Assembly: GCA_002746795.1 (NCBI GenBank) | Contig: PDQY01000039.1 | Coordinates: 1 to 39,321 of the forward strand | Source: Chloroflexota bacterium | GTDB lineage: Bacteria; Chloroflexota; Anaerolineae; Promineifilales; Promineifilaceae | Direction: 5' to 3' | DNA: 39,321 nucleotides | Shown here: positions 18,954-37,935 of the stretch, piece by piece | Numbering within the stretch: the first letter of the stretch is position 1 | Layout: each line of letters opens with the position of its first letter | The notes under the pieces: generated by a model | Database searches by the model: none | What the model was told of the DNA's origin: nothing | What the model saw: only the letters and a program-made list of their open reading frames with translations | Program-made: the position numbers and the translations under genes

Positions 18954-21900
18954 ATGGCTCAGCCTGCACTGCTTATCCGCACAAAACTATCGCCGCCTCG
19001 TTTGCCTCGCCACACACTGGCACGTGAGCGTGTGTCAGCACTGTTAGCAACCGTGCGCGAGTATCGCCTGGCGATCATGCAAGCGGGCACAGGCTATGGA
19101 AAATCAACAGCGCTGGCTACCTTTGCCCTCGATACCCAAAAGGCAGCCTGGTATCATCTCCATGCTGACGACGCTGATCCTCAAGTCTTTTTACATCACC
19201 TGGCCTACTGCTTGAAAACGGCCGTTCCCCAAATCTCCGATGAGCCATTCACCTTACTTGAGCAGTGGGAGTTGGCGCCAGGCAATCATATCTGGACTGA
19301 CATCACCCAATCCCTGCTCAACGAGATCATAGAAAGCACAGACGAAAACATCTTTCTCATCCTGGACGACGTTCACATTTTGCCAGAAACAGCCGTTTCC
19401 CTGCGCATCCTCAACCATTTCATCAGCTACGCACCCAACAACCTCCATATCATCCTGGCCACCCGCTACCCCCTCTCGCTGCCCAATCTGCATCGCTGGC
19501 GTATTCGTGGCGAGTTGATGACCCTCAACCAGGAAGAACTGACATTCACCCCAGACGAAACCGCCATCTTTCTCCAGACCCAATACAACATCACCCTCTC
19601 TCCAGAACAATCAGCCCTGCTCGCCAATCGTGTTGAAGGATGGCCCATTGCCTTACCCTTAATTGGTCGGCGTTTACAAAGCGGCAGTAACCTGGAAGAG
19701 GCTCTAGGCCATCTCTCCGGCTCTGCTGGAGATTTATTTGTCTACTTAGCGCAGGAAGTTTTAGCCCAGCACCCTGAACACGTGCAGCAATTCTTGACAG
19801 AAACGGCCGTTTTGCGTCAGATGACAGCCTCCGTGTGTGATGAACTGCGACAACAAACAGACAGCACCGATATTTTGACATACCTCCTAGAAAACGACCT
19901 GTTTATCGTAGCTTTGGGAGACGGGCATGTGCGCTACCATCACCTTTTCCGCGAACTGCTGCTCAACCAGCTTGACCCGGCCATCACCAAAGCACTGCAT
20001 CTGCGGGCAGCCACCCTCCTAAAAAACAAAAATGACAGCAAAAGCGCCATCTACCACTTTTTGGCAGCAGAAGCCTATGAAGAAACGGCCGTCTTGCTCA
20101 AAACCATTGGCTACCGTTTTATCCAGAGTGGGCAACTCGACACCATTTCCATCTGGATTGGCCGCATCCCGCCTAACATCCTAGTCAACCATCCCCCGCT
20201 ACTCTCCTATTTGGGTGACGTGGCTCGTTTGCGCAGCCGATTTGAAGAAGCACTAGCCTGGTATCAACAAGCCGAAACCCACAGCCGCGCTCGTGATGAC
20301 CACACCGCCATTGGGCAAGCACTGCGCGGACAAGCACGTGTTTACCTGGACACCGTTAACCCCGTCCAAGCCGAAGCAGTTCTTCAAGAAGCATTACGAC
20401 TTGCCGATGATCAAGATAACCGGGAAACACAAGCCCGGTTATTAGATTTATTAGCCGAAAATCTACTCAATCAAGGGCATCCCCATGAATCCGAGCAATA
20501 CCGCGCACAAGCCCGCGATCTTCGTGAAGAAGGACCTGGAGAAGCCGAGCTATCTGTACGGGTCATGTTACGCACCGGCCGATTAGAAGAAGCACGCCGT
20601 CTATTAGAAGCACAAGCAGCACAAGAACAACAAGAGCCAGTTCTTCGTCCTCGTGCCCACAGAGAGACACAACTTCTCCTCTCCATCATCTTGTCAATGC
20701 AAGGTGAACGGGAGCAAGCATTTCAATGCGCCATAAATGGCACTGCTCGCGGACAGGCATTGCGTTCACCATTCATAACCGCCGTTGGTCACATGCGGCA
20801 AGGGCATACCTGGCTACTCAAAAAAGATGAACCAGGTGCCAGAGAGGCCGTCCGTTGTTTTGAAAAGGCGATCCGCATCAGCGAAACCTTACACGTGCCT
20901 CGTTTAAAAGTTGAAGCGAGTTGGGGATTAACACAAGCCTATGGTTTTCGTGGTGATTTGAAGATGGCGCAGCAAGTCGCCGAAGAAGGTCTGGCATTGG
21001 CGCGTGCCGCTGGCGACGAGTGGGTATCAGCCTGCATCAGCCTGGCGTTAGGCGCCTCCTTTGCCCTATTCAGTGAACACGAAACGGCCGTGAGCTGGGT
21101 CAGCCAAGCTCGCAGCGCCTTCCGCGAATGTGGAGACACATATGGCGAAACAGCAAGCTATTTATGGCTTTGTCTGCTCTGGCACCAACAAAGCGATCAC
21201 GTCAGGCTCGCCCGTGACCTGGACGACCTGCTGCAACGAGTTAACACCTACCACTACCAGTTCCTCTTCACTCGGAAAACATTGATGGGAGCGCCAGATC
21301 CACGTTCACTAGTGCCAGTGCTGCTCTATGCCCGGGAAAACAGCGTGCAAACGGCCGTTGCAGATTCCCTACTCGCAGCCATCAACCTGTCCAAAATCAA
21401 ACATCATCCCGGCTACCAACTGCGGGCTCACATGCTAGGGCCATTTGCGCTGTGGCGCGGCCCAGACCCTGTGCCAGCCAGCGAATGGAAACGGCAAAAA
21501 GCACGTCAGCTCTTCCTCTTCTTCCTGACCAACCGCCACACCCTCTGGGAACGAGAACAAATCACCGACTGCCTGTGGCCAGAACTCGATCCCGATGCGG
21601 CTGAACGCAACTTCAAAATCGCCTACAACGCCCTCACCAAAGTCCTAGAGCCAAACCGGCAGCGAAATGCCCCGTCAGCCTTCATTTTGCGAGATGGGTC
21701 TCGCTACGGCTTGCGCCCCGAAGCCGACATTTTACTAGACGTACAAACATTCAACGAACTGGTTGCCGAGGGAGACAGGTTACTCGCCCAAAACGAGCTG
21801 CAAGCCCTGACACAGTATCAACAAGCATTAGCCCTCTACAAAGGTGAATTTCTGCAAGAGTATCCCTACGAAGAATGGACCAGCACCGAGCGCGAGCGGT

Positions 21901-22178
21901 TGTTTACCCAATATTTACGCACCTCCGAGCGAGTAGCCTCCAGTTTGCTAGCTCACGAAAAATGGGAAGACGCCTTACAAACAGCACAAGCCATTCTCAA
22001 CCATGATGCTTGCTGGGAAAACGCCTACCGCATTCTCATGACAGCCTATGCCCAGATGGGCAATCGCGCCCAAGCCATCCGCACCTACCACCGCTGCATT
22101 GACAATCTGCAATCTGAACTCGGCGTCTCCCCCACCCAAACCACAGTTCAATTGTGGCAGCAAATTTGCGAAATCTAA
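18954..22178 (+). CDS. MalT-like STAND ATPase regulator with TPR region and C-terminal SARP wHTH + BTAD domain
   Basis: 'LLIRTKLSPPRLPRHTLARERV', Walker A 'MQAGTGYGKSTALATF', 'LILDDVHIL'; C-terminal 'LRAHMLGPFALWRG...RQKARQLFLFFLTNRHTLWEREQITDCLWPELDPDAAERNFKIAYNALTKVLEP' and BTAD 'YRILMTAYAQMGNRAQAIRTYHRCIDNLQSELGVSPT'. Confidence 0.92.
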   Translation: MAQPALLIRTKLSPPRLPRHTLARERVSALLATVREYRLAIMQAGTGYGKSTALATFALDTQKAAWYHLHADDADPQVFLHHLAYCLKTAVPQISDEPFTLLEQWELAPGNHIWTDITQSLLNEIIESTDENIFLILDDVHILPETAVSLRILNHFISYAPNNLHIILATRYPLSLPNLHRWRIRGELMTLNQEELTFTPDETAIFLQTQYNITLSPEQSALLANRVEGWPIALPLIGRRLQSGSNLEEALGHLSGSAGDLFVYLAQEVLAQHPEHVQQFLTETAVLRQMTASVCDELRQQTDSTDILTYLLENDLFIVALGDGHVRYHHLFRELLLNQLDPAITKALHLRAATLLKNKNDSKSAIYHFLAAEAYEETAVLLKTIGYRFIQSGQLDTISIWIGRIPPNILVNHPPLLSYLGDVARLRSRFEEALAWYQQAETHSRARDDHTAIGQALRGQARVYLDTVNPVQAEAVLQEALRLADDQDNRETQARLLDLLAENLLNQGHPHESEQYRAQARDLREEGPGEAELSVRVMLRTGRLEEARRLLEAQAAQEQQEPVLRPRAHRETQLLLSIILSMQGEREQAFQCAINGTARGQALRSPFITAVGHMRQGHTWLLKKDEPGAREAVRCFEKAIRISETLHVPRLKVEASWGLTQAYGFRGDLKMAQQVAEEGLALARAAGDEWVSACISLALGASFALFSEHETAVSWVSQARSAFRECGDTYGETASYLWLCLLWHQQSDHVRLARDLDDLLQRVNTYHYQFLFTRKTLMGAPDPRSLVPVLLYARENSVQTAVADSLLAAINLSKIKHHPGYQLRAHMLGPFALWRGPDPVPASEWKRQKARQLFLFFLTNRHTLWEREQITDCLWPELDPDAAERNFKIAYNALTKVLEPNRQRNAPSAFILRDGSRYGLRPEADILLDVQTFNELVAEGDRLLAQNELQALTQYQQALALYKGEFLQEYPYEEWTSTERERLFTQYLRTSERVASSLLAHEKWEDALQTAQAILNHDACWENAYRILMTAYAQMGNRAQAIRTYHRCIDNLQSELGVSPTQTTVQLWQQICEI

Positions 22179-22422: not shown

Positions 22423-22641
22423 ATGACAGAAACGGCCGTTACCTCATTTGTGGTTCGTTTTATCCAGGAAGACCCGGCAGTTGACACCTGGCGCGGCCTC
22501 ATCCGCCACGTACAAACCAGTCAGGAAATCCACTTTTCCAGCATCAAAGACGCCCTCCTTTTCATGGATCAATTCGTGAAAATAGAGCAACCGCCAACTG
22601 AACATCATCCTCAAATAAGACACAACAAGGACATCCCATGA
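22423..22641 (+). CDS. Small (72 aa) conserved-looking protein of unknown function
   Basis: ATG with upstream 'aaggaa'; 'MTETAVTSFVVRFIQEDPAVDTWRGLIRHVQTSQEIHFSSIKDALLFMDQFV'; stop overlaps the start of the next CDS. Confidence 0.6.
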   Translation: MTETAVTSFVVRFIQEDPAVDTWRGLIRHVQTSQEIHFSSIKDALLFMDQFVKIEQPPTEHHPQIRHNKDIP

Positions 22642-23639
22642 GTCGATATGCCCAAATATTGGCAACAGGTCGCTACATCCCCGAGAAAATCATCACCAAC
22701 GACGACCTAGATCAGATGCTAGGCGAAAACGTCGGGGAATGGCTAGTCGAAAACGTCGGGATTCATGAGCGCCACATCATGGCCGCTGACCAAACCACGT
22801 CAGACATGATCGCAGCCGCCGCTAACCAGGCATTGACCCGAGCCAATATCCCGGCTGCCCAACTCGACCTCATCATCGTCGCCACCGACACCCCCGATTA
22901 CATCAGCCCCGCCACCGCCTCAGCAGTACAAGCCAAACTTGGCGCCACCAACGCCGGCACCTACGACATCAACTGCGCCTGTGCTGCCTGGGTCACCGGT
23001 CTGGACATAGCCGCCCGCTACATCGCCACCGACACCGATTACAACACCATCCTGGTTGCCGGCGGCTACGGCATGACCAAATTCCTCGACTGGACCGACA
23101 AATACACCTGCACCTTGTTCGCCGATGGCGCTGGCGTGGCCATCGTAGGAGCAGGCGATAAACCTGGTTTCCTGGCAGGCAAGCTCATGGCTGAAGGCGA
23201 ATACCACGATGCTATGGGCATCTACAGCGGCGGCACATACCGCCCTGCCACTCCAGAAACCGTCGCCAAACTAGGCAAACCGTGCGTTCAATTTGTGCGC
23301 AAATTCCCAGCCACCTTCAACAGCGACAACTGGCCGCCATTAGTGCGCAGCGTTGTCGCCAAAGCTGGTCTAGAGTTAGACGACATCGACTTTTTCCTGT
23401 TTACCCAGCTCAACTTACGCACAATCGAATTTGTCATGGAAAACCTGGGGCAGCCCCTGAGCAAAACCCATTGGATTATGGACAAGTGGGGCTATCTTGG
23501 CTCCGCTTGCATTCCAGCCGCCCTAGACGACGCCCTGGTTCAAAACAAAGGTCCCCAGCCGGGTGACCATGTCGTCTTTTGCGCCACCGGCGGCGGCATG
23601 GCCATGTCAGCCACCGTTTGGCGCTGGCGCAGCTGCTGA
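22638..23639 (+). CDS. KASIII (FabH)-like thiolase-superfamily protein 1
   Basis: 'WLVENVGIHERHI', catalytic-Cys region 'YDINCACAAWVTGLDIAARYI', 'LVAGGYGMTKFLDWTD', 'ATGGGMAMSATVWRW'. Confidence 0.85.
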   Translation: MSRYAQILATGRYIPEKIITNDDLDQMLGENVGEWLVENVGIHERHIMAADQTTSDMIAAAANQALTRANIPAAQLDLIIVATDTPDYISPATASAVQAKLGATNAGTYDINCACAAWVTGLDIAARYIATDTDYNTILVAGGYGMTKFLDWTDKYTCTLFADGAGVAIVGAGDKPGFLAGKLMAEGEYHDAMGIYSGGTYRPATPETVAKLGKPCVQFVRKFPATFNSDNWPPLVRSVVAKAGLELDDIDFFLFTQLNLRTIEFVMENLGQPLSKTHWIMDKWGYLGSACIPAALDDALVQNKGPQPGDHVVFCATGGGMAMSATVWRWRSC

Positions 23640-23766: not shown

Positions 23767-23827
23767 CTAACAATCCATCAAAAACTGAAAACTTGCAGCA
23801 AAACCAACTGCAAGCATGGAGGATAAC

Positions 23828-25363
23828 ATGCACATTGGCGACTACTTAGGACGCCGCAACATCTATTCACCAGACAAATTGGCCATGATCGATGCGGGTA
23901 AGTCACCCGAACTGCGCCTGACTTACCGCCAATGGAATCAGCGCGTCAACCAGTTAGCCAACTGGCTGCGTCACGAAGCTGGTATCCAAAAGGGAGACCG
24001 CGTCGCCATTCTGGCCAAAGATGGCATCGAGCATCTTGATTGTTTCTTTGCTTGCGGCAAATTGGGCGCAATCCACACCGCCCTCAACTGGCGGCTCCAT
24101 TGGCGTGAAACCCACGCCATCCTGGAAAATACAACCCCTAAAATTCTCCTCTATTCCAGCGAATTCACCGCTGACATTACCGAAATATCATCCGCCATCA
24201 ATTTTCCACTATCCATGATCCATTTAGAAGATGAAGGCGCAGAAAACAGCACAGCGTATCAGGCCGTTTTAGCTAGTGGAGCAGAAACGGCCGTTACCTG
24301 CCCCTCCCTCACCAAAGAAGACACCGCCTGCCTCATCTTCACTGGCGGCACCACAGGTTTACCCAAAGGCGCTCAAATCAGCCACCGCATGATCAACTGG
24401 AACGTCCTCAACACCATCATCCACGACCTGCACCACGACGACATCTACCTCAACGTCTTTCCCTTATTCCACGCTGGCGGACTGTTTGCCTACACCTCAT
24501 CCCAAATCGTCATTGGCAACACCACCATCATCACCCGGCAGTTTGACCCAGAACAGGTACTGGCTTTGATTGAGCGAGAAAAAGTCACCGTCTTTGCTGC
24601 GGTGCCCACCATGTACCAAATGCTCACCCAGGCTCCCCACTGGGATTCAGCCGATCTAAGCAGTTTACGCTTTTGCACCAGCGGCGGTGCCCCCCTGCCC
24701 CGCCCCCTCATCGAACAATACCAGCAAGAAAAAGGCGTGCGCTTCAAACAAGGTTTCGGCATGACAGAATACGGCCCAGGTCTCTTTGCCCTCTCCGCCA
24801 AAGATGCCGTGCGCAAAGCAGGCAGCATCGGTCGCCCCAACTTCTTCATCGACGTGCGCGTGGTAGACAACAACAACCAGCCCCTCGGCCCCAACGAAGT
24901 TGGCGAACTAGTGCTTAAAGGCCCTAGCGGCTGTTCCGGCTACTGGAATAACCCGGAAGCCTCAGCCACCGCCTACGACGAGGCAGGCTGGTTCCACACT
25001 GGCGATTTAGTACGTTACGACGAGGAATGGTATTTCTACGTCGTTGACCGCAAAAAAGATATGTTCATCTCCGGCGGGGAAAACATCTATCCGGCTGAGA
25101 TTGAAGCCGTTTTATACAAACATCCCGCCATACTCATGTGTGCCGTCGTGGGCATTCCAGATGAAAAATGGGGCGAGGTAGGCAAAGCCTGTGTCATCCT
25201 CAAACCAGACAAAACCATCACCGAAGCCGAACTCATCACCTTCATGCAAGAACAGTTAGCTCGCTACAAAGTCCCCAAAAGCGTCACCTTCATGACTGCA
25301 TTCCCCCTATCCGGCGCAGGAAAAATTTTGAAGCGGGAGCTGCGAGAAAAATTTATCTCGTAG
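23828..25363 (+). CDS. AMP-dependent acyl-CoA synthetase 1
   Basis: ATG with 'ggagg' SD; 'LIFTGGTTGLPKGAQISH', 'GFGMTEYGPG', 'GWFHTGDLVRYDEEWYFYVVDRKKDMFISGGENIYPAEIE', terminal 'GAGKILKRELREKF'. Confidence 0.93.
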   Translation: MHIGDYLGRRNIYSPDKLAMIDAGKSPELRLTYRQWNQRVNQLANWLRHEAGIQKGDRVAILAKDGIEHLDCFFACGKLGAIHTALNWRLHWRETHAILENTTPKILLYSSEFTADITEISSAINFPLSMIHLEDEGAENSTAYQAVLASGAETAVTCPSLTKEDTACLIFTGGTTGLPKGAQISHRMINWNVLNTIIHDLHHDDIYLNVFPLFHAGGLFAYTSSQIVIGNTTIITRQFDPEQVLALIEREKVTVFAAVPTMYQMLTQAPHWDSADLSSLRFCTSGGAPLPRPLIEQYQQEKGVRFKQGFGMTEYGPGLFALSAKDAVRKAGSIGRPNFFIDVRVVDNNNQPLGPNEVGELVLKGPSGCSGYWNNPEASATAYDEAGWFHTGDLVRYDEEWYFYVVDRKKDMFISGGENIYPAEIEAVLYKHPAILMCAVVGIPDEKWGEVGKACVILKPDKTITEAELITFMQEQLARYKVPKSVTFMTAFPLSGAGKILKRELREKFIS

Positions 25364-25451
25364 TCAGATAGTCAAATAGTCTGGTAATCAACCCGTTGGC
25401 AGCATGGATTACGAGACTAACGACGACAAAGCTAAACAACCGAGGACAATT

Positions 25452-26519
25452 ATGACTGACACCGTAGGCATTGCCGGGATCGGCACCTATTCACCAGAAG
25501 GGTATCTAACCAGCAAAGAGATCGCAGAAGCCACAGGCTTCCCAGAATGGGTAGTGCGCGATAAACTAGGCATTCACAAAAAACATGTAGGTGGTCCAGA
25601 CGACCAGCCCAATGAAATGGGCATCAAAGCGGCGCTAGACTGTTTAGAAAACAGCGGCATCGACCCAAAAGAAATTGATGTGGTACTCAACACCACCGAA
25701 GAGTGGCGCGAATATCTGCTCTGGACCTCAGGCATCCACATGGCGTATGAAATTGGCGCGACCAATGCCTGGGCCATGGACATCCATACCCGTTGCGCCA
25801 CCACCGTCGGCGCCATGAAGATAGCCAAAGACATGATGATCGCCGACCCTGAAGTAAACACAATCCTCATTGCTGGGGGGTATCGTGTGTCTGATTTCAT
25901 CAACTTCAAAAACAAACGTACCTCATTCTTATGGAACATTGGCAGCGGCGGCGGTGCCCTGCTGCTGCGCAAAAATCACCCGCGCAATCAAGTTTTAGGG
26001 TCACATTTGATGGCCGATGGCTTCATGAGCAAACATGTCATCGTGCCTGCCAGCGGCACAGTGCAGTATCCCAATCCCCAAGCGATGGCCAAGCCCCAAA
26101 ACGTGAACGAAGAGGATTTTTACTTCGATTTGGTCGAGCTGGAAGCGATGAAAGATCGCCTGAACGCCGTGAGCATGGACAACTGGGTACACTGCGTCAA
26201 CGAAGCGCTGCGCAAAAGTGGCACCAAGCCAGACGGAACCCCCTACACCAAAGCAGATCTGGACTTTTTGAACATAGTTCTAATCAAACCGTCCGGTCAT
26301 CGGGATATGTTAGCTCGCTTAGGGCTGACAGAGGAACAGTCAGTTTACCTGAACGAGATCGGGCACACAGGCGAGCAAGATGCTATGTTTGGCATTCGTG
26401 AAGGCGTCGCTCAAGGTCGGCTGAAAGAGGGTGATTTGATGGCCATCGTGGCAGCTGGTATCGGTTATGTGTGGGCGGCCAGCGTCGTCCGCTGGGGGCG
26501 TCTACAAACTTCAGCTTAG
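25452..26519 (+). CDS. KASIII / HMG-CoA-synthase-like thiolase-superfamily protein 2
   Basis: ATG with 'gaggac' SD; 'VVRDKLGIHKKHVGG', 'AMDIHTRCATTVGAMKIAKD', 'ILIAGGYRVSDFINFKN', 'VAAGIGYVWAASVVRWG'. Confidence 0.8.
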   Translation: MTDTVGIAGIGTYSPEGYLTSKEIAEATGFPEWVVRDKLGIHKKHVGGPDDQPNEMGIKAALDCLENSGIDPKEIDVVLNTTEEWREYLLWTSGIHMAYEIGATNAWAMDIHTRCATTVGAMKIAKDMMIADPEVNTILIAGGYRVSDFINFKNKRTSFLWNIGSGGGALLLRKNHPRNQVLGSHLMADGFMSKHVIVPASGTVQYPNPQAMAKPQNVNEEDFYFDLVELEAMKDRLNAVSMDNWVHCVNEALRKSGTKPDGTPYTKADLDFLNIVLIKPSGHRDMLARLGLTEEQSVYLNEIGHTGEQDAMFGIREGVAQGRLKEGDLMAIVAAGIGYVWAASVVRWGRLQTSA

Positions 26520-26570
26520 TCTAAGGTAACGCAGGATTTATGGAGATTGCAAAATCTAAAGGACAAGGAA

Positions 26571-27329
26571 ATGAGATTAAAAGATAGAGTAGCAGTAGTA
26601 ACCGGTGGAGCAGCCGGGATTGGTAAGGCAACGGCCGTTCGCTTCAAAGAAGAAGGCGCCCTTGTCGTGATTTGTGACGTGAACGAGGAATTAGGGCAGG
26701 CTGCCGCAGCTGAGATCGGCGCTGATTTCTACAAAGTGAACGTAGCAGACCGACAAGCTGTGCAAAACTGGATTGATACAGTGGTAGAGAAAAACGGCCG
26801 TGTGGACATTCTGGTCAACAATGCAGGGGTGTTGCGTGACGGCACCCTGGTCAAAGTCAAAGATGGCCAGTTAGTCAAACAAATGTCAGAAGAAAACTTT
26901 GACTTAGTCATCAGTGTCAACCTCAAAGGCGTCTTCAACTGCACCCAAGCCGTCGCCCCTGTCATGATCAACCAGGGCAGCGGTGTCATTCTCAACGCCA
27001 CCTCCATTGTAGGTCTTGATGGCAACTTCGGTCAGACCAACTACGTAGCCACCAAAGCAGGCGTCATCGGCATGACCAAAGTATGGGCACGGGAATTGGG
27101 GCGCAGTGGCGTGCGCGTCAATGCCATAGCTCCGGGGTTCACCCTCACAGAAATGGTCAGACAAATGCCAGAGAAAATCCTCGAGGGCATGAAAGCTCGC
27201 ACCCCCTTGCGCCGTTTGGGGGAACCGCGAGACATCGCCAACGCCTACCTCTTCCTGGCCTCAGACGAAGCCAGCTTTATCAGCGGCGAAACCCTGCGCG
27301 TGGATGGCGGCATCGTCGTCGGGACTTAA
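26571..27329 (+). CDS. SDR-family 3-oxoacyl reductase (FabG-like)
   Basis: 'DRVAVVTGGAAGIGKATAVRF', 'LVNNAGVLRDG', 'NYVATKAGVIGMTK' (YxxxK), 'INSGETLRVDGGI'-type C-terminus. Confidence 0.93.
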   Translation: MRLKDRVAVVTGGAAGIGKATAVRFKEEGALVVICDVNEELGQAAAAEIGADFYKVNVADRQAVQNWIDTVVEKNGRVDILVNNAGVLRDGTLVKVKDGQLVKQMSEENFDLVISVNLKGVFNCTQAVAPVMINQGSGVILNATSIVGLDGNFGQTNYVATKAGVIGMTKVWARELGRSGVRVNAIAPGFTLTEMVRQMPEKILEGMKARTPLRRLGEPRDIANAYLFLASDEASFISGETLRVDGGIVVGT

Positions 27330-27375: not shown

Positions 27376-28908
27376 ATGCACGCAGCAGATTTATTGAATA
27401 AACGAGCGTTGTTGACACCAAATCGTGAAGCGCTGCTATTTACCGACAGCGGCGAACGGTTCAGTTACGCTGCACTCAACGAACGCGCCAACAAAGCAGC
27501 TCACTTCTTGCGTGACAAATGTGGCGTCCAACCAGGAGATCGCGTCTCCATTTTGGCCCACAACAGTGTGGTCTACATCGACCTGCTTTACGGAGTCGCC
27601 AAAATTGAGGCTATCCTGGTACCGTTGAACTGGCGGCTGGTGGCGGCAGAACTCACCTACATAGTCAATGATTGTGCGCCAAAAGTATTGCTTTGTGACC
27701 CAGATTTTGTCGAAACGCTGACCCAAATGCAGCCCAACATCCAGGTTGAGCAACTCGTCAGCCTGAACGGTGCTGAGATCGAGGGAGCGCTTTCGTATGA
27801 GGATGAGTTGGCACAAGCCGAAAGTAGTGAACCAGAACGGCCGTTATCCCTCAACGGTGAATCCCCCCACTGCATCCTCTACACCTCCGGCACCACCGGC
27901 CAGCCCAAAGGAGCCATCATTCCACAGCGCCAGGTTCTTTGGAACATTCTCAACACGGCAGCAAGCTGGGGACTGACAGAGCATGACGTGTCACCAGTCT
28001 TTACCCCCCTCTTTCATGCTGGTGGTCTGTTTGCCTTCTTGACCCCCCTGCTATACTTGGGCGGTCGCCTAGTCTTGTCCAAAGGCTTCGACCCAGAAAA
28101 CACACTAGACATCATCCTCAAAGAAAAATGCACCGTCATTTTAGGCGTCCCTACCCTCTTTCAAATGTGGCTCGACGCCCCCAACTTCCAGGAGCTTGAT
28201 TTCAGCCATGTCCACTTCTTCATCAGCGGTGGCGCACCCTGCCCACCCTCGCTCATGGAAAAATGGCGCGAGTGCAAAAACATCATTTTTCGCCAGGGCT
28301 ATGGCCTCACCGAAGTCGGCCCCAACTGCTTCAGCATGACCGATGATGATTCAATACCCAAGACAGGCAGCGTAGGCCGCCCCATCTTCCACAGCGACAT
28401 GCGGCTGGTAGATGAGCAAGGCAATGACGTAGCGGTAGGACACACTGGCGAACTGCTCATCAAAGGCCCCCACGTCTGTACCGGGTATTGGCACAATCCT
28501 GAAGCCACAGCCACAGCACTGGTCGATGGTTGGTTCCACACGGGTGACACCGCCCGCATGGACGAAGATGGCTTCTACACCATCGTTGGGCGTGCTAAAG
28601 ACATGATCATCAGCGGCGGAGAAAACGTTTATGCTGCTGAGGTAGAAGCGGTTTTCCTGGAGCATCCGGCCGTTTCTGGGGCAGCACTCATCGGTAAACC
28701 ACACAAAAAATGGGGAGAAGTCGGGCTGATGGTGGTCATCACCGAGAAAGGCCACAGCGTGACCGCAGAAACACTCATCGACTACTGCCACCAACGGTTG
28801 GCTCGCTACAAAACCCCCAAAGAAGTCATCTTCGCAGAAGAACTACCCTATTCGCCTTACGGCAAAGTGCAGAAGAACAAACTGCGAGAGAAATATTTGG
28901 AATCGTGA
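27376..28908 (+). CDS. AMP-dependent acyl-CoA synthetase 2
   Basis: 'ILYTSGTTGQPKGAIIPQ', 'GYGLTEVGPN', 'GWFHTGDTARMDEDGFYTIVGRAKDMIISGGENVYAAEVE', 'YGKVQKNKLREKYL'. Confidence 0.93.
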   Translation: MHAADLLNKRALLTPNREALLFTDSGERFSYAALNERANKAAHFLRDKCGVQPGDRVSILAHNSVVYIDLLYGVAKIEAILVPLNWRLVAAELTYIVNDCAPKVLLCDPDFVETLTQMQPNIQVEQLVSLNGAEIEGALSYEDELAQAESSEPERPLSLNGESPHCILYTSGTTGQPKGAIIPQRQVLWNILNTAASWGLTEHDVSPVFTPLFHAGGLFAFLTPLLYLGGRLVLSKGFDPENTLDIILKEKCTVILGVPTLFQMWLDAPNFQELDFSHVHFFISGGAPCPPSLMEKWRECKNIIFRQGYGLTEVGPNCFSMTDDDSIPKTGSVGRPIFHSDMRLVDEQGNDVAVGHTGELLIKGPHVCTGYWHNPEATATALVDGWFHTGDTARMDEDGFYTIVGRAKDMIISGGENVYAAEVEAVFLEHPAVSGAALIGKPHKKWGEVGLMVVITEKGHSVTAETLIDYCHQRLARYKTPKEVIFAEELPYSPYGKVQKNKLREKYLES

Positions 28909-28965: not shown

Positions 28966-30039
28966 ATGGAGAAAATGATGAACGTACCCACAATTCCAGG
29001 CATATCGGCAAAAACAATCACCACCGACCGCATCACCACGCGCGTGTTGTTCAGCGGACCAGAAAATAGCATCCCTGTGCTATTTTTGCACGGCAACCTC
29101 TCGTCAGCCACATGGTGGGAAGAGACGATGGTCAATCTGCCCGCTAGTTTTCGGGGCATTGCCCCAGACCAGCGCGGTTTTGGTGAGGCTGAGGCAGCTA
29201 AAAAAGTAGATGCCACCCGTGGCGCCGGTGATTGGGCGGACGACATTTTGGCGCTGCTAGACAATCTTGGTATCCAACAAGCTCATATCGTGGGCAATTC
29301 TTTGGGCGGCAATGTCGTTTGGCGGCTGCTGATGGACGCCCCCGAAAAATTCTTATCTGCTGTCCTGGTAGACCCAGGGTCTCCTTACGGTTTTGGCGGC
29401 GTCAAGGGGATCGATGGCACACCTTGCTATGATGATTTTGCTGGTTCTGGCGGTGGTCTTTCCAATCCAGAGCTAATCAAACGCATAGCAGCCGGAGATA
29501 TGAGTACCGACAGTCTCTTCTCGCCCCGCTCGGCTCTGCGTACCATTGTAGTCAAACCACCCTTTATCCCTGAACGGGAAGAGGCACTGTTGCTGTCGAT
29601 GTTCACCACCCATATCGGCGAGCAAGATGTGCCAGGTGATTCAGTGCCATCGCCTAACTGGCCCCATATGGCACCAGGCAAATGGGGGGCGACCAATGCC
29701 CTCTCACCCAAATACGCTGGTGATGTCCGCAAAATCATCACCAGCGAACCGAAAACCAACGTGCTTTGGATCCGAGGCAGTCATGATCTAGCCGTGTCAG
29801 ATCAGGCGGCATCTGACCCAGCCACGGTAGGAGCAATGGGCGCACTGCCCGGCTATCCTGGACCAGACGTGTATCCGGCACAACCTATGCTGCAACAAAC
29901 TCGAGACATTCTCGAAAAATATGCGGCTGCTGGCGGAGCCTACAAGGAGGTGGTCATTGAAGAGGCAGGCCACATTCCCTATATCGAAAAACCAGAGGAG
30001 TTTAACAAGCATTTTCATGCGTTTATCAGTGGGCAGTAA
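28966..30039 (+). CDS. Alpha/beta-fold hydrolase (Ser nucleophile)
   Basis: 'PVLFLHGNLSSATWW', 'GIAPDQRGFGEA', nucleophile elbow 'HIVGNSLGGNVVWRL', C-terminal 'VVIEEAGHIPYIEKPEEF'. Confidence 0.9.
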   Translation: MEKMMNVPTIPGISAKTITTDRITTRVLFSGPENSIPVLFLHGNLSSATWWEETMVNLPASFRGIAPDQRGFGEAEAAKKVDATRGAGDWADDILALLDNLGIQQAHIVGNSLGGNVVWRLLMDAPEKFLSAVLVDPGSPYGFGGVKGIDGTPCYDDFAGSGGGLSNPELIKRIAAGDMSTDSLFSPRSALRTIVVKPPFIPEREEALLLSMFTTHIGEQDVPGDSVPSPNWPHMAPGKWGATNALSPKYAGDVRKIITSEPKTNVLWIRGSHDLAVSDQAASDPATVGAMGALPGYPGPDVYPAQPMLQQTRDILEKYAAAGGAYKEVVIEEAGHIPYIEKPEEFNKHFHAFISGQ

Positions 30040-30101: not shown

Positions 30102-31364
30102 ATGACCAAACGAAAATTAAGCAGAGGGGTCGCTGTTGTCGGGGCTGGGATGAGCCAGTTTGGGGCATTCCCAGAGAAAACAACGCGTGATTTATTTGTG
30201 GAAGCGTTTCAGGATATGAGAGCTTCTGTGGACAAAGGGCTGGTGCCCCATGACATTGAAGCGTTGTACCTTGGCAATTACAGCAGTGATTTATTTGAAG
30301 GCCAGGGGCACACCGCTCCCATTATGGCAGATTGGGTGGGCTTAACGCCGCGTCCTGCTACGCGCATTGAAGATGCCTGCGCCAGTTCTGGGGTGGCTTT
30401 ACGCCAGGGATTGCTGGCTGTGGCCTCAGGTGCGTACGATGTTGTCTTGGTTGGCGGCATTGAGAAAATGAACAATCTGCCCATCGCTGAAGTGACTGAG
30501 GCGTTGGCGACTGCTGGCGACATTTTGTATGAAATTCCAGCCGGGTTTACCTTCCCTGGCTTTTACGCCACGATGGCGACGGCCTACATGCACAAATACG
30601 GGGCAGTGCCAGAAGCGTTGATGCACGTGGCTAAGAAAAATCATGATAATGGCGCCTTGAATGCCAAAGCGCAGTTCAACAGCACCATCGCCAAGGTGAT
30701 GGCTGCCAAGCAGCGCAGCGCAGAGAAAAAAGGGCGTCCCATTCCTACTTGGGAAAATGAAATGGCGTTCCTGCATGATGACCGAGCCAACCCGATGATT
30801 GCCTGGCCGCTGCGTTTGTTCGATTGCTCGCCAGTGACGGATGGAGCAACGGCCGTTCTCCTGGTTAGCGAAGCAATTGCCAAACAATACACAGATGATC
30901 CCGTTTACATCATCGGCTCTGGACAGGCCAGTGATGGTGCCCTGCACGACCGCCCCGACCTGACCAGCATCGGAGCCGCCAAACGAGCCAGTCAAATGGC
31001 CTACGACATGGCAGGCGTCAATGCCAACGACATCAAAATCGCCGAAGTCCACGACTGTTTCACTATTGCCGAAATCATTGCCACCGAAGACCTGGGCTTT
31101 TTTGCGCCAGGCCAGGGCCATAAAGCCGCGCAAGAAGGGCTTACTGCCCGTTATGGCCCCAAACCAATCAACACCTCTGGCGGCTTGAAGTCAAAAGGGC
31201 ATCCGGTCGGCGCTTCAGGCGCGGGGCAAGCGGTGGAAATCTTCAAGCAAATGCGCCGTCAGGCAGGCAGCCGGCAGGTAGACCGGGACATCGATTTAGC
31301 ACTCACCCACAATGTCGGCGGCACAGGGCAAACGGCCGTTGTTCACATTTACGAGAGGAGATAG
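30102..31364 (+). CDS. SCP2-type thiolase / acetyl-CoA acetyltransferase-like
   Basis: 'EDACASSGVALRQGLLAVASGAYDVVLVGGIEKM', 'EVHDCFTIAEI', 'GGLKSKGHPVGASGAGQAVEI', C-terminal 'HNVGGTGQTAVVHIYER'. Confidence 0.9.
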   Translation: MTKRKLSRGVAVVGAGMSQFGAFPEKTTRDLFVEAFQDMRASVDKGLVPHDIEALYLGNYSSDLFEGQGHTAPIMADWVGLTPRPATRIEDACASSGVALRQGLLAVASGAYDVVLVGGIEKMNNLPIAEVTEALATAGDILYEIPAGFTFPGFYATMATAYMHKYGAVPEALMHVAKKNHDNGALNAKAQFNSTIAKVMAAKQRSAEKKGRPIPTWENEMAFLHDDRANPMIAWPLRLFDCSPVTDGATAVLLVSEAIAKQYTDDPVYIIGSGQASDGALHDRPDLTSIGAAKRASQMAYDMAGVNANDIKIAEVHDCFTIAEIIATEDLGFFAPGQGHKAAQEGLTARYGPKPINTSGGLKSKGHPVGASGAGQAVEIFKQMRRQAGSRQVDRDIDLALTHNVGGTGQTAVVHIYERR

Positions 31365-31423: not shown

Positions 31424-31849
31424 ATGAATGATAGAGCATTTAATGAACATTCTTTCCAGGCATATTTAAGCGAAGGCAAATTGATGGGCTCGCGGAGCAA
31501 AGCGACGGGCAAAATTTACGTACCGCCCCGCCCGCTAGACCCAGAAACCCACAGTGATGAGATGGAGTGGGTTGAGCTATCGGGCGCAGGTGAACTATCA
31601 GCCTTCACGGCCGTTTTCATTGGCCCGACTGCCATGATCGAAGCAGGTTACAACCGCAACAATCCTTATATGAGCGGCATCGTCAAGTTGGCAGAAGGTC
31701 CGTTTGTCAGTGCCCAAATCTTAGGGCTAGACGCGGCTTCGCCAGACATCAACGCGATTGGCACCCCGTTAACCGTGCAGTACATTGACCGCAGTGAAGG
31801 TGAAGAGAAACGAACCTTTTTAGCTTTTACCGCATCACAACCAGATTGA
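31424..31849 (+). CDS. DUF35/OB-fold acyl-CoA-associated protein, apparently lacking the zinc-ribbon cysteines
   Basis: Position after thiolase; 'LSEGKLMGSRSKATGKIYVPPRPLDPETH' aligns with DUF35 'L.G.RC..CG..Y.PPR..C..C'; 'EWVELSGAGELSAFTAVFIGP'. Confidence 0.75.
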   Translation: MNDRAFNEHSFQAYLSEGKLMGSRSKATGKIYVPPRPLDPETHSDEMEWVELSGAGELSAFTAVFIGPTAMIEAGYNRNNPYMSGIVKLAEGPFVSAQILGLDAASPDINAIGTPLTVQYIDRSEGEEKRTFLAFTASQPD

Positions 31850-31863
31850 TACAAGACACCAAA

Positions 31864-31992
31864 ATGGGTGAAGAAGGCCTACGAAAACTGCATTCTTACT
31901 TAGAAATCATTGCCAATCAGATTCCCCAGGCTGAGTTTGCCGTGATACCGGGAACAGGGCAGGCTGCCTTGTGGGGAAAATCGGAGGAATAA
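31864..31992 (+). CDS. Possible 42-aa small ORF overlapping the 5' end of the called ACS3 ORF
   Basis: MGEEGLRKLHSYLEIIANQIPQAEFAVIPGTGQAALWGKSEE*; stop 2 bp before ATG 31995, with 'ggaggaataagg' between; below the 60-aa ORF-track cutoff. Confidence 0.35.
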   Translation: MGEEGLRKLHSYLEIIANQIPQAEFAVIPGTGQAALWGKSEE

Positions 31993-31994
31993 GG

Positions 31995-33530
31995 ATGTAT
32001 CATTTTGATTGGATCAAACGACATGCAGAACGCACGCCAGAGAAGTTGGCTTTGGTCGATGCAGCCACAGGTCAACAGTGGACTTATGCAGGGTTAAACG
32101 GCCGTTCTAACCGTCTCGCCTCTTTCTTCAAAACTAAACTGGGCATCCAGCCAGGGGATCGCATCTCCATCCTGGCACAAAACAGCGCCGACTACTTTGT
32201 AGTGCTGTTCGCTTGCAGCAAAATCGGTGCCATCCTCAACACCCTCAACTGGCGGTTGGCGGTGCCTGAGTTGGCCTACATCCTCACCGACTGCACCCCA
32301 CGGGTCATCATCTACGAGCCAGACTTTGAAACGGCCGTTTCTCAACTGCTGCCCCAAACCACCATCGAAGCCACTGTTTGCCTGGGCGATACTGCGTTGG
32401 CTGATGGCTGGAACTACACAGACGCTTTAGCGGCTGGCGCTCCCGCTGATTTTGATAGACCTCGCCTCAGCTACGACGACATCTGGGCCATTTTATACAC
32501 CTCCGGCACCACTGGACGACCCAAAGGCGCCCAAGTGACCTATGGCAATTTCTTCTACAACGCGGTGGGCATGGGGTGCGCCATTGATTTAACGTCACAA
32601 GATGTCAATCTCAACGTGCTGCCCACTTTCCATGCAGGTGGGTTAGGGCTTTATGCTGGCCCTATTTTCCATGCAGGCGGTACACTCATCAGCATGCGTA
32701 CCTTTGATCCGGGCAAACTGTTAGCGCTCATCGAAGAATGGCAGGTAAGCGTAATGCTGTTGGTGCCCGCTATTTACCTGGCGCTCTCCCAGTTCCCAGA
32801 TTTTGCGCAACATGACCTTTCAAGTGTGCGTCATTGGGGCAGCGGCGGCTCATCTCTGCCACCCAATCTAGTTCACGCCTTTGCTGAAAAAGGGATCATC
32901 ATTCAACAAGGCTTTGGGATGACGGAAACTGGGCCAACTGTTTTCATCATCGACAAAGAGAATGCGGTGCGCAAAGCAGGATCCGTGGGCAAACCAGTGT
33001 TACACACCGACGTGAGCATCCGTGACCGACAGGGCCAGGTACTTGGTCCAAATGAAGTAGGCGAACTGTGCATTCGCGGTGGAAACGTGACCACCGGCTA
33101 CTGGAATCTTCCCGACGCCACAGCCGAAGCGCTAAACGATGGCTGGCTTCACTCTGGTGACGCCGCCATGATGGATGACGAAGGATTCTATTACATCGTG
33201 GATCGTTGGAAAGATATGTTCATCTCCGGTGGCGAGAATGTGTACCCGGCCGAGGTGGAGAATGTGATTTACCAGCATCCGGCAGTAGCAGAAACGGCCG
33301 TTATCGGGGTACCTCATCCCAAATGGCAAGAGACTGGACGCGCTCTCATCGTCCTCAAAGCAGAACAAACCGCCACCGAGGCAGAAATCATCGACTTTTG
33401 CCAGGGCAAACTGGCTCGCTACAAGATTCCCAAGTCAGTTGTCTTTCTCGATAAACCATTGCCGCGCACAGCTGCGGGCAAGGTGTTAAAGCGCGAACTG
33501 CGGGAAACGTATGGAGAAGAAAGAGCATGA
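31995..33530 (+). CDS. AMP-dependent acyl-CoA synthetase 3
   Basis: 'ILYTSGTTGRPKGAQVTY', 'GFGMTETGPT', 'GWLHSGDAAMMDDEGFYYIVDRWKDMFISGGENVYPAEVE', 'AAGKVLKRELRETY'. Confidence 0.93.
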   Translation: MYHFDWIKRHAERTPEKLALVDAATGQQWTYAGLNGRSNRLASFFKTKLGIQPGDRISILAQNSADYFVVLFACSKIGAILNTLNWRLAVPELAYILTDCTPRVIIYEPDFETAVSQLLPQTTIEATVCLGDTALADGWNYTDALAAGAPADFDRPRLSYDDIWAILYTSGTTGRPKGAQVTYGNFFYNAVGMGCAIDLTSQDVNLNVLPTFHAGGLGLYAGPIFHAGGTLISMRTFDPGKLLALIEEWQVSVMLLVPAIYLALSQFPDFAQHDLSSVRHWGSGGSSLPPNLVHAFAEKGIIIQQGFGMTETGPTVFIIDKENAVRKAGSVGKPVLHTDVSIRDRQGQVLGPNEVGELCIRGGNVTTGYWNLPDATAEALNDGWLHSGDAAMMDDEGFYYIVDRWKDMFISGGENVYPAEVENVIYQHPAVAETAVIGVPHPKWQETGRALIVLKAEQTATEAEIIDFCQGKLARYKIPKSVVFLDKPLPRTAAGKVLKRELRETYGEERA

Positions 33531-33575
33531 TGAACGCGGAATCGGTCATCGTTCCTCATGCATCATTTGATATTT

Positions 33576-33953
33576 ATGAAGATTGGACAGGTAATCACAG
33601 AAACAAAAGTATTTACGCAAGCGGAGTTTGATGCCTTTGCGCAGTTGAGCCGGGATGATAACCCCATTCATGTGGATGCAGCTTTTGCAGCGCGGACGCG
33701 ATTTGGGCGCACGGTGGCACACGGCATGCTTTTGTACAGCACCATTTGCGGTGTCCTGAGCCGCCATTTTCCCGGCGCGGTACAGCTAGAACAACAATTC
33801 ATGTTTCCAGCCCCCACTTTTGCTGAGGAACGGATGGAAATTCGCCTTCAAGTCGAGGAAAAATCAGCCAAGCGAGTGTTGGTGATGACCCAAATCTTGA
33901 ATGAAGCAGGCAAATTAACCTGTGACGGAGCGTGTGTGCTGGCTTATGGCTAA
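33576..33953 (+). CDS. MaoC-family (R)-specific enoyl-CoA hydratase
   Basis: 'FDAFAQLSRDDNPIHVDAAFAARTRFGRTVAHGML' canonical hydratase-2 motif. Confidence 0.9.
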   Translation: MKIGQVITETKVFTQAEFDAFAQLSRDDNPIHVDAAFAARTRFGRTVAHGMLLYSTICGVLSRHFPGAVQLEQQFMFPAPTFAEERMEIRLQVEEKSAKRVLVMTQILNEAGKLTCDGACVLAYG

Positions 33954-34287
33954 TTTAATGTTACATGACACGGTTGAGCAAGCGGCAGTGCTCACCTTGA
34001 ACCGCCCCATCACCACAGAAGAAGCTGTCGCCTGGAGGCTGGCAAGCCGAATCGTGTCTGCGGCTGAGATTCGGCAAAAAGCAGTTCAGTTAGCGCAGAA
34101 AATCGCCAGCATGAAACCGGGCAGCATCCGCCACAGCAAACGCCTGCTCAACCCCAATCGGCAGAAAATTAGAGCGTTGTTAAACACAGAGCTACCCCCC
34201 TTCCTGCAGCACATCGTGGCGGGGGAAGGCATTGGCAGCCCTTGTGATTATGTCAACAAAAGCAGGGCAAAACAGGAATCAACATGA
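33946..34287 (+). pseudogene. Enoyl-CoA hydratase/isomerase (crotonase) with large in-frame internal deletion; remnant or miniprotein
   Basis: N-terminal 'VEQAAVLTLNRP' joined directly to C-terminal-type 'ITTEEAVAWRLASRIVSAAEIRQKAVQLAQKIASMKPGSIRHSKRLL'; core with the active site is absent. Confidence 0.7.
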
Positions 34288-34694
34288 AAGGATTAAACAT
34301 TGGTCAACAAGCCTCTGCCAGCCGCATTTTCACAGCAGCAGATGTCGCCCAATACCAGGCTTTAGCGGGTGATGTGGGGTTACATTTTGGCATGGCAGGA
34401 GAAACAGCCACTTCAACCTCGCTCAAAGTCGCCATTCCTGGCCCCCTCCTCGCTGGCATGTTTTCTGATTTATTAGGCACCAAGCTGCCAGGGCGTGGCA
34501 CCAATTGGCTCAAACAACAACTACAATACCCCACAGCCGCTCACGTGGGCGATGAAATTACAGCAACTGTAGAGATCACCCGGCTGCGCCCAGAAAAAGA
34601 ACTTGTGAATTTACGAACCACCTGCACCACTCAAGCAGGGAACATCGTTTGTGCCGGGGAAGCCCTGGTCCTGGTCAAAGACCTGGAATCATAA
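34284..34694 (+). CDS. Divergent MaoC-like hotdog protein
   Basis: 'FTAADVAQYQALAGDVGLHFG...VAIPGPLLAGMFSDLLGTKLPGRGTNWLKQQLQYPTAAHVGDEITATVEI'. Confidence 0.75.
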   Translation: MKGLNIGQQASASRIFTAADVAQYQALAGDVGLHFGMAGETATSTSLKVAIPGPLLAGMFSDLLGTKLPGRGTNWLKQQLQYPTAAHVGDEITATVEITRLRPEKELVNLRTTCTTQAGNIVCAGEALVLVKDLES

Positions 34695-34849
34695 GGAGGC
34701 GAATATGTAAAAATGAACACATCAATAAAACCGCAGATTTTGCAGATTTCGCAGATTTTTCATGTGTCGCTTTGCGTCTTTGCATCTTTGCGTGAGTTTT
34801 TTAACAAACAAGAATGTTACCCAATTCCAATTATTCGGAGGAAAAAGAT

Positions 34850-36328
34850 ATGAAAAATCGTCAATATTTAATGATGTTGTTGTCCTTACTGCTGGTATTC
34901 GTCCTGGCACTAGCTGCGTGTGGTGGCGAACCTGCCGCTGAAGAACCAGCCGAAGAACCTGCTCCAACGGAAACGGTCGAACCGATGGCAGAAGAGGTTG
35001 AACCGGCAGCAGAAGAAGCTGAAGAGGCTGAACCAGTGGCTGAAGAGTCTGAATCGGTGGCAGAAGAAGCGGCTGAAACGGAAGCCCCTGCTGCTGAGGA
35101 AGAAGAGATGGCAGGAGACGGGGGAACGGCCGTTTGCGAAGAACCGGTCAAAGTTGGGCTGATCACTGACGTCACCGGTGACCTCTCCATCTACGGCGCC
35201 CACATGTTACGCAGCTTCCCTTACGGCATGGAATATGTGGCTGGTGCCCCTGGCGAAAAAGTGTCCGACGAACAGTGGACCTTCCAAATTGACGACTGTA
35301 CCGTCGAAATCTACATTCAAGATGACCAATCAGCCGCAGAAAACACCGCCACTGTAGCCCGTGAACTCATCGAAGTGGAAGATGTGGACATCTTGGTCGG
35401 CACCGTCAGCTCTAGTGCCACCGCCACGCTGCAAGAGCTGGCTCGTGAAAACAAGATTCCGCTCATCGTGGCTCCTGCCGCCGCCAACGACATCACCGGC
35501 GCCAACTTCAACGAATACACCTTCCGCACCAGCCGTAACAATTACCAAGATACAGTCAATCTGTGTGAATATTTAGTCCAGGATTACAGCACCTTCGTCC
35601 AAATCGCCCCAGATTACGCTTTTGGTTACGGTGGAGCAGCAGCATACCGTGATGCGTGTACCTTGTTTGGCGGCGAATTCGTCTCTGACGACATCTTTGC
35701 CCCAGCTGATACCACGGAGTTCACCCCCTACATGGAAGAAATACTAGATTCTGGGGCTGACGCATTCCTGGTGACGTGGGCAGGTGGTGGCTTTGTGCCA
35801 ATGATGCAAGCCGCCACCGATCTGGGCGTCCTTGACGAGATGAACATGGGTGCCAGCTTTGTCGATAATGTGGTCATGCCTGTCTTCTTTGGCAACAACA
35901 TTGGCAACACCAGCGGTATCATCTACCATTACACGGCTGCCGATAATGAAGTCAATGATTGGCTTGTCGCCAAGACAATGGAAAATGATGGCGTCCCACC
36001 TGACCTGTTCGATGCTGATGCCATGAATGCAGCACTGCTGTTTGGCAACGCCCTGCGTGCCACCGGCGGTGATGCCTCGGCTGATGCACTCATCAGCGCC
36101 ATGGAAGGTATGGAATTTGAAGGGCCGAAAGGCACCATCTACATCCGTCCCGAAGACCATGTAGCCATTCAAGATATGTACATTGTCACTTTAACCAATC
36201 TAGACGATCCCGAGTTCAAATTCTTTGATTACGTCGAAACGAACCGGCCCGATGTCCCCTGCTTATTGCCGGAAGAACTGCAAGATCGCTGTGGTGACCT
36301 GCCAATTGGCAGCTTAAGCGGCAAATAA
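34850..36328 (+). CDS. Liv-type ABC transporter substrate-binding lipoprotein
   Basis: Lipobox 'LVFVLALAACGGE'; Glu/Pro-rich linker; 'VKVGLITDVTGDLSIYGAHMLR', 'ILVGTVSSSATATLQELARENKIPLIVAPAAANDIT', 'YAFGYGGAAAYRD'. Confidence 0.9.
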   Translation: MKNRQYLMMLLSLLLVFVLALAACGGEPAAEEPAEEPAPTETVEPMAEEVEPAAEEAEEAEPVAEESESVAEEAAETEAPAAEEEEMAGDGGTAVCEEPVKVGLITDVTGDLSIYGAHMLRSFPYGMEYVAGAPGEKVSDEQWTFQIDDCTVEIYIQDDQSAAENTATVARELIEVEDVDILVGTVSSSATATLQELARENKIPLIVAPAAANDITGANFNEYTFRTSRNNYQDTVNLCEYLVQDYSTFVQIAPDYAFGYGGAAAYRDACTLFGGEFVSDDIFAPADTTEFTPYMEEILDSGADAFLVTWAGGGFVPMMQAATDLGVLDEMNMGASFVDNVVMPVFFGNNIGNTSGIIYHYTAADNEVNDWLVAKTMENDGVPPDLFDADAMNAALLFGNALRATGGDASADALISAMEGMEFEGPKGTIYIRPEDHVAIQDMYIVTLTNLDDPEFKFFDYVETNRPDVPCLLPEELQDRCGDLPIGSLSGK

Positions 36329-36329
36329 T

Positions 36330-36470
36330 CAGTGGACAGTAGACAGTGAGCCAGTAAACAGTGAGTAGTAAACAGCAGGCAGTGAGCAGTTTTGCATATC
36401 AAGCATGACTGTTCACTGTCAGCTGAACATTGTCAGCTGAATATTGACCACTGTTCACCCAAAAACGGAG
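36330..36470. repeat. Spacer with degenerate cagtgagcagt/cagtaaacagt word repeats and inverted counterpart
   Basis: cagtggacagtagacagtgagccagtaaacagtgagtagtaaacagcaggcagtgagcagt ... tgactgttcactgtcagctgaacattgtcagctgaatattgaccactgttcaccc. Confidence 0.75.
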
Positions 36471-36476
36471 TCCTCC

Positions 36477-37238: not shown

Positions 37239-37935
37239 CTTGCTCGATGTACAAAACATTCACACCTTCATTGGTCAATTCCACATTTTGGAAGGCGTTT
37301 CGGTTACGGTACCGAAAAACAGCATCACGGTGTTGCTGGGTCGTAATGGCGCTGGCAAGACAACGACGCTGAAATCCATCATCGGTTTAACGCCGCCAAG
37401 TGCCGGCAGCATTATCTTTGATGGCCATAACATTCAAGGGCATCCCAGCTATGACATTGCGTCGATGGGCATTGGTTTTGTGCCGGAACACCGGGCGATT
37501 TTCCGCGATTTGAGTGTGGCGGAAAACTTGAAGCTGGCCGAGAGGAAGAAGGGAGATCTAGCACGGAAGGAGGAGTTGATATTCACGCTCTTTCCAGACT
37601 TAAAACGGTTGATCAAACTACCCGGCACCAATTTGTCTGGTGGGCAGCAGCAGATGCTGGCAGTGGCTCGCGCCTTAGTGCCAGACAATAAATTGCTCTT
37701 GATCGACGAACCGAGCGAAGGATTGGCTCCAGTCATTATTGAGCAAATGATTGAGGCGATTTTGAAGCTGTCTAAAAATGCGACGGTGCTGCTCGTGGAG
37801 CAAAGCTTTGTGGTTGCCAGCAAGTTGGCTAAACGGTATGTGATTATTGAAGAAGGACAATCAGTGAAACAAGGGCTGATGGCAGATTTGGTGGATGATA
37901 AAGAGACGATCCATCGTTATCTGGGTGCAGCCTGA
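37231..37935 (+). CDS. livF: Liv-type ABC transporter ATP-binding protein (LivF-like)
   Basis: ATG overlaps livG stop (ATGACTAA); 'LLGRNGAGKTTTLKSIIGL', 'NLSGGQQQMLAVARALVPDNKLLLIDEPSEGLAPVII'. Confidence 0.92.
   Translation: MTNLLDVQNIHTFIGQFHILEGVSVTVPKNSITVLLGRNGAGKTTTLKSIIGLTPPSAGSIIFDGHNIQGHPSYDIASMGIGFVPEHRAIFRDLSVAENLKLAERKKGDLARKEELIFTLFPDLKRLIKLPGTNLSGGQQQMLAVARALVPDNKLLLIDEPSEGLAPVIIEQMIEAILKLSKNATVLLVEQSFVVASKLAKRYVIIEEGQSVKQGLMADLVDDKETIHRYLGAA

Follow-up and report, generated by a model that had tools for sequence, protein, structure and literature searches.

The window, i.e., the whole stretch of 39,321 nucleotides analyzed here from a Chloroflexota MAG, encodes a KASIII-fold enzyme (K1) that keeps the nucleophilic cysteine of FabH and carries threonine and tyrosine at the positions of the catalytic histidine and asparagine. 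The homologues of K1 span at least six bacterial phyla, and all those sampled had the same replaced residues. Our favored, tentative reading is that K1 may catalyze a CoA-dependent Claisen or retro-Claisen reaction without decarboxylation, at a Cys-Asp-Thr-Tyr site.

Active site of K1 and its conservation

The frame of K1 was intact, and the open reading frame was bounded exactly by positions 22638-23639 on the + strand. It matched the Pfam domains PF08545 (6e-21) and PF08541 (3e-22), which places it in the KASIII family, and contained the motifs INCACAAWVTGL (residues 111-122), TQLNLRT (256-262), and WGYLGSAC (284-291). In the alignment, C112, H244, and N274 of E. coli FabH corresponded to Cys115, Thr256, and Tyr286 of K1, and the same register was obtained from profile and pairwise alignments of K1 to solved FabHs. 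In the E. coli FabH reference sequence used, the three catalytic residues had the numbers expected for them, and the register obtained with it agreed with the solved FabH chains. The gene and the codons considered below are:

22638..23639, + strand: K1, KASIII-fold enzyme with a Cys-Thr-Tyr active site, 333 aa (open reading frame, Pfam, AlphaFold)
22887..22889, + strand: codon of Asp84, an acid in the column of the HMG-CoA synthase Glu (D in 77/77 rows reaching it)
22980..22982, + strand: codon of Cys115, the nucleophile (FabH C112; present in 76/76 family rows covering the position)
23403..23405, + strand: codon of Thr256, in place of FabH His244 (T in 77/77)
23493..23495, + strand: codon of Tyr286, in place of FabH Asn274, within an invariant MxKWGY (Y in 77/77)
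23508..23510, + strand: codon of Cys291, five residues after Tyr286 (C in all family rows reaching it)

Homologues were collected from genomes of the same bacterial family and from 84,980 species genomes. They occurred in Chloroflexota, Competibacteraceae (Gammaproteobacteria), Desulfobacterota, Myxococcota, and Acetothermia/Bipolaricaulota and Elusimicrobia MAGs; organism names are those of the MAG records, some of which may be misbinned. Because the search used exact peptide patterns and was biased to near relatives, the real spread of the subfamily is probably wider than sampled. A phylum-wide motif scan of 400 Chloroflexota genomes had matches in just 11, which belonged to the same class; the exact DNA pattern makes this an undercount.

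Thr and Tyr were present in all 77 homologue rows and Cys in all 76 rows reaching that region; one alignment of 78 rows contains the K1 of the window twice. Cys, His, and Asn were found in 26 of 26 FabH rows, comprising E. coli FabH and 25 paralogues (20 + 5) from the same bacterial family. The preliminary description of K1, which had reported the retained Cys and the exchanges of His to Thr and of Asn to Tyr, was thus confirmed, the exchanges being fixed far beyond chance. A replacement His or Asn was looked for in the alignment, and none moves in from elsewhere in K1. His278 is invariant and equals FabH position 266, eight residues before Tyr286; it was judged from the alignment to lie outside the active site. 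Asn259 corresponds to FabH’s own N247. Sequencing error or a pseudogene was rejected as an explanation, as the same residues recur in homologues and the frame is intact.

In a tree without K2, the second KASIII-like protein of the window, the Cys-Thr-Tyr group was set apart from the FabHs with a support of 0.89. Support for the K1 node was low (0.11) in the tree with K2, probably because of the long branch of K2. The median identity in the trimmed alignment was 61% within the K1 group (minimum 40%) and 34% to the FabHs; FabH paralogues of the same bacterial family were mostly 32–39% identical to K1. Judged from these alignments, K1 is a subfamily under strong constraint and not a decaying FabH. 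The signature separating the two consists of ATDTPD, the nucleophilic Cys, TQ, and MxKWGY.

The AlphaFold model of K1, calculated from 36 family members, had a mean pLDDT of 91.8, and Foldseek found it closest to solved FabHs (top match 4ryb, TM 0.89/0.92). According to this model the fold is otherwise that of FabH. Going by the alignment, Asp84, Thr256, and Tyr286 would be placed around Cys115, with Asp84 predicted to point into the active site.

Further fixed replacements and the relation to FabH

Two more fixed replacements in the K1 family, Asp84 and Cys291, had been missed by the preliminary description. The column of Asp84 (FabH position 81) holds S, T, or C in the 26 FabH rows and Glu both in K2 and in the HMG-CoA synthase of the same genome; HMG-CoA synthases have their catalytic Glu at this column. 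The requirement for Cys plus Glu is discussed in PMC6392133. At the column of Cys291 (FabH 279), 25 of the 27 Asn-group rows had Ser and all K2 rows had Asp. At positions 274/279, FabH hence has the pair Asn/Ser, K2 has His/Asp, and K1 has Tyr/Cys.

We take R36, K214, R249, K256, and K257 of E. coli FabH to be the ACP-docking positions. At these positions the docking residues are mostly lost from the K1 family: R36 is replaced by N in 66 and K214 by T in 70 of the 77 rows, K256 mostly by E, Q, or A, and K257 by varied residues, and R249 is partly lost (48 rows with R, 26 with N, out of 77). The FabH gate residue F87 is exchanged for S, and F304 for S or T; the CoA-stacking W32 is kept in 72 of 77 K1 rows.

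Genomes of the same bacterial family carry separate Cys-His-Asn FabH genes. A canonical FabH was not found in the MAG of the window, which is 77% complete; given this completeness and the relatives that have both K1 and FabH, the idea that K1 stands in for a missing FabH was rejected.

K1 might still be a decarboxylating ketosynthase, in which the hydroxyls of Thr256 and Tyr286 would take over from His and Asn in donating hydrogen bonds to the malonyl thioester. The overall fold of the K1 model, that of FabH, is in line with this. Moreover, the earlier statement that decarboxylative Claisen condensation needs His and Asn turned out to be too strict: in PqsC, Val occupies the place of Asn, yet decarboxylative condensation goes on, and removal of the His from FabH lowers the activity only about 10-fold, to roughly one tenth (PMC4807248). 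The missing His and Asn alone therefore do not exclude decarboxylation. Nevertheless, the view that K1 is not an ordinary decarboxylating FabH is supported by the fixed substitutions, the invariant Asp84, the loss of most docking residues, and the separate canonical FabHs of relatives. Against decarboxylation, the additional Asp and the loss of docking residues weigh more than the missing His and Asn, and we regard a decarboxylating K1 as improbable.

K1 scored 229.5 bits against the FabH model TIGR00747 (cutoff 292.1) and 248.3 bits against the generic model PRK09352 (“beta-ketoacyl-ACP synthase 3”, cutoff 249), i.e., just under the latter cutoff. The best relative scored stronger than K1 on the generic model (2.8e-83 versus 9.2e-74), and some relatives probably pass its cutoff. 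The FabH-like annotation of K1 is probably wrong in function. With K1 proteins scoring at this cutoff or close to it, a fatty-acid initiation enzyme may be wrongly assigned to uncultured Chloroflexota and other bacteria in metabolic reconstructions.

Gene neighborhood and candidate reactions

The genes surrounding K1 in the window are:

18954..22178, + strand: LuxR/MalT-like regulator with a BTAD domain, upstream of the cluster (Pfam)
23816..25363, + strand: LIG1, acyl-CoA ligase, directly downstream of K1 (Pfam/NCBIfam)
25404..26519, + strand: K2, second KASIII-like protein, PRK06840 family (NCBIfam, 415 bits, cutoff 315; alignments)
26547..27329, + strand: FabG/PhaB-like SDR (profile matches)
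27376..28908, + strand: LIG2, acyl-CoA ligase (profile matches)
28966..30039, + strand: alpha/beta hydrolase (Pfam)
30102..31364, + strand: SCP2-type thiolase with the motifs DACASS, HDCF, and GHP (profile matches and motifs)
31424..31849, + strand: DUF35/OB-fold thiolase partner (PF01796)
31971..33530, + strand: LIG3, acyl-CoA ligase (profile matches)
33558..34694, + strand: pair of MaoC-like hydratase genes flanking an enoyl-CoA hydratase remnant (profile matches)
34814..37935, + strand: LIV-type ABC importer, binding protein and two ATPases (profile matches)

Intergenic gaps were mostly 27–62 bases, with 176 bases after K1 and 121 before LIG3. The SDR lies three genes downstream of K1 and does not adjoin it. 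The enoyl-CoA hydratase remnant (33922-34287) retains only profile positions 152–206 and scored below the cutoff; longer hydratase frames were seen near the MaoC genes of relatives (loci L033, L039, L047, and L050). On the - strand (16306-18717), adjoining the regulator, a large protein is encoded that has a C-terminal DUF7402/F5-F8-like domain and, as judged by eye, repeats resembling those of a beta-propeller; it is unrelated to the K1 finding.

Among relatives in the Chloroflexota, an acyl-CoA ligase was located directly 3′ of K1 almost everywhere, and counting all K1 loci with downstream sequence, a ligase was within the set distance in 35 of 62. Several Chloroflexota loci also had a similar LuxR/MalT-BTAD regulator near K1. 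In Bellilinea a CoA-transferase (PF02550/PF13336) takes the place of the ligase; in the cultured Bellilinea caldifistulae, the gene after K1 (L100:10929-12362) belongs to the acetyl-CoA hydrolase/transferase family. In 11 other loci, among them those of Acetothermia, Bipolaricaulota, and Elusimicrobia MAGs, a FabG-like SDR lies immediately 5′ of K1, and ligase, SDR, K1, and LIV importer occur together in the Acetothermia/Bipolaricaulota loci. In Competibacteraceae, Desulfobacterota, and Myxococcota loci no broadly conserved neighbor was found and K1 stands alone; the neighbors therefore do not define the role of K1 everywhere.

From the observed residues, conservation, fold prediction, and gene neighborhood we infer chemistry, direction, and substrate of K1 as follows. 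The reaction would be a condensation, or the thiolytic cleavage of a beta-ketoacyl-CoA, and not FabH’s malonyl-ACP condensation. The neighboring acyl-CoA ligase (the CoA-transferase in Bellilinea) would provide a CoA ester, from which Cys115 would accept the acyl group; this step is plausible because Cys acylation in this fold is independent of His (PMC4807248). Asp84 would act as general base or acid on the carbon being bonded or released, while Tyr286 and Thr256 would hold and protonate the thioester oxyanion, replacing Asn and His, and Cys291 would back Tyr286. The FabG-like SDR would convert between beta-hydroxy and beta-keto forms. We favor non-decarboxylative (retro-)Claisen chemistry because Asp84 offers a carbon-acid base, superfluous in a decarboxylating enzyme, and because the SDR and ligase neighbors point to beta-keto CoA esters. 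The invariant Cys, Thr, and Tyr, the lost docking residues, and the separate FabHs also count for it, and rebuilt sites with Tyr/Cys acid-base pairs are described in related superfamily members (PMC12329534). Counting against it are the true SCP2-type thiolase of the same cluster, which could do any thiolysis, the three lineages in which K1 is solitary, and the position of the SDR in the window, apart from K1. Among the alternatives named in the preliminary description, the non-decarboxylative enzyme nevertheless fits best, given Asp84, the SDR, and the ligase; the acyltransferase is possible and the partner subunit unlikely.

As an acyltransferase, K1 would use Cys115 to pass a ligase-made acyl group from CoA to an O-, N-, or S-nucleophile, with Tyr286 and Cys291 acting as the His and Asp of CerJ/ChlB3. 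The FabH 274/279 columns, which hold His/Asp in CerJ-type enzymes and K2, are occupied by Tyr/Cys in all K1 rows, and in several Chloroflexota loci K1 and the ligase form a two-gene unit without reductase or thiolase; both observations are consistent with this role. However, K1 has no His at that column, and Tyr with Cys makes a weaker base. Neither Asp84 nor the SDR neighbor is accounted for by this role, and none of the genes seen to recur in the K1 loci was of an acceptor type, such as one for a carrier protein or for a sugar or amine pathway. We consider the role a serious rival, though less probable than the favored reading. K2 contains Cys131, His321, and Asp326 (His and Asp five residues apart) as well as Glu99 at the HMG-CoA synthase Glu column, with Val and His at the FabH His244 and Asn274 positions; Cys131, His321, Asp326, and Glu99 were all fixed in sampled relatives. 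Its model was weaker (pLDDT 78.0) and matched FabH and OleA. On the basis of these residues, K2 may be the CerJ-like acyltransferase of the cluster.

A structural or regulatory partner subunit would relate to a catalytic one as PqsB to PqsC or PhlA to PhlC. Such complexes exist (PMC4807248, PMC6392133), and K2 and the thiolase/DUF35 pair lie in the same cluster as K1. However, PqsB lacks all three FabH triad residues and PhlA lacks Cys and Glu, whereas in K1 the Cys is invariant and the polar character of the site conserved. K2 was present in 10 of 52 genomes of the family, six with K1 and four without, and about 19 genomes had K1 without K2. Since each gene occurs without the other in many genomes, K1 is unlikely to be a partner subunit of K2, and with K1 solitary in several phyla, a subunit role of any such kind appears very improbable. 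A complex of the PhlA/HMG-CoA-synthase type with the thiolase and DUF35 protein of the cluster was also rejected; it is not obligate, as most K1 loci are without these genes nearby.

Finally, K1 could be a retro-aldolase like Ltp2/Sal, in which a Tyr with a Cys as acid-base pair would cleave a beta-hydroxyacyl-CoA and no acyl-enzyme would form. Two aldolases of the thiolase superfamily, Ltp2 (Tyr/Tyr) and Sal (Tyr/Cys), have rebuilt sites (PMC12329534), and the MaoC hydratases and CoA ligases nearby provide a catabolic setting. This is difficult to reconcile with a nucleophilic Cys kept without exception; furthermore, the Tyr of Sal/Ltp2 sits in a YDxF/Y motif, which was not found in the K1 sequence, and the DUF35 partner with which both act is missing from the vicinity of K1 in most loci. 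We therefore consider a retro-aldolase quite improbable.

Comparison with known systems

K1 shares fold, length, and nucleophilic Cys with FabH, and its best PDB matches are all FabHs. It differs from FabH in the exchanges His to Thr, Asn to Tyr, Ser/Thr to Asp84, Ser to Cys291, and F87 to Ser, in the mostly changed ACP-docking positions, and in forming its own clade. The archaeal-type HMG-CoA synthase of the same genome (contig C56) is a CoA-dependent KASIII-fold relative that likewise has an acidic residue at the Asp84 column, but keeps His and Asn (HQPN, GNTY) and is only about 22% identical to K1. K1 itself has the Cys and the acid (Asp84) of an HMG-CoA synthase and lacks the His, and it scored 32 bits against TIGR00748 (cutoff 353). 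By sequence features, the locus of the HMG-CoA synthase (L112:4051-8433) also holds HMG-CoA reductase-like, SCP2-type thiolase, and DUF35 genes in an archaeal-type order, a gene set that suggests a mevalonate pathway in the MAG.

A Thiolase_N match on K1 was below its Pfam cutoff. The C-terminal segment of K1 reads CATGGG, and its Cys315, found in 66 of 77 rows, lies one residue earlier than the CxG Cys that we would expect from thiolases; not being invariant and being one residue off, Cys315 seems a questionable candidate for a thiolase-like second Cys. OleA is a non-decarboxylative Claisen enzyme of the KASIII fold with an acyl-CoA substrate, and its site consists of Cys, His, and Asn plus a Glu from the partner subunit; K1 differs from it in lacking His and Asn.

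The acyltransferases CerJ and ChlB3 have in common with K1 the KASIII fold, the catalytic Cys, and a repurposed pair at FabH 274/279. In ChlB3 this pair is His296/Asp301, five residues apart, an arrangement said to be common to CerJ (PMC9573744). K1 has Tyr286 and Cys291 there instead of the His and Asp of the Cys-His-Asp triad, and the CerJ-type pair is found in K2, not in K1. PqsBC resembles K1 as a FabH-like condensing enzyme that has lost part of the triad and uses acyl-CoA; however, PqsC keeps the His, and PqsBC is a heterodimer of two dedicated genes (PMC4807248). With K2 as the partner examined, K1 has no obligate partner gene of this type, as about 19 genomes of the family have K1 and lack K2, and K1 is solitary in other phyla. 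The steroid aldolases Ltp2/Sal share with K1 the thiolase superfamily and Tyr/Cys acid-base residues, but belong to the SCP2-thiolase branch, act without a Cys nucleophile step, and have a DUF35 partner (PMC12329534).

The residue combination of K1 was not found in a literature search of open-licence papers, and each of the described KASIII members compared here either retains the His or has one where Asn would be. Possibly, K1 represents an undescribed class of C-C bond enzymes that combines the KASIII fold with a Cys-Asp-Thr-Tyr(-Cys) site, performs non-decarboxylative (retro-)Claisen reactions on CoA esters, and is present in at least six phyla under FabH-like annotations. If this is true, a subfamily that replaces both His and Asn and adds a fixed Asp would widen the known chemistry of the KASIII fold.
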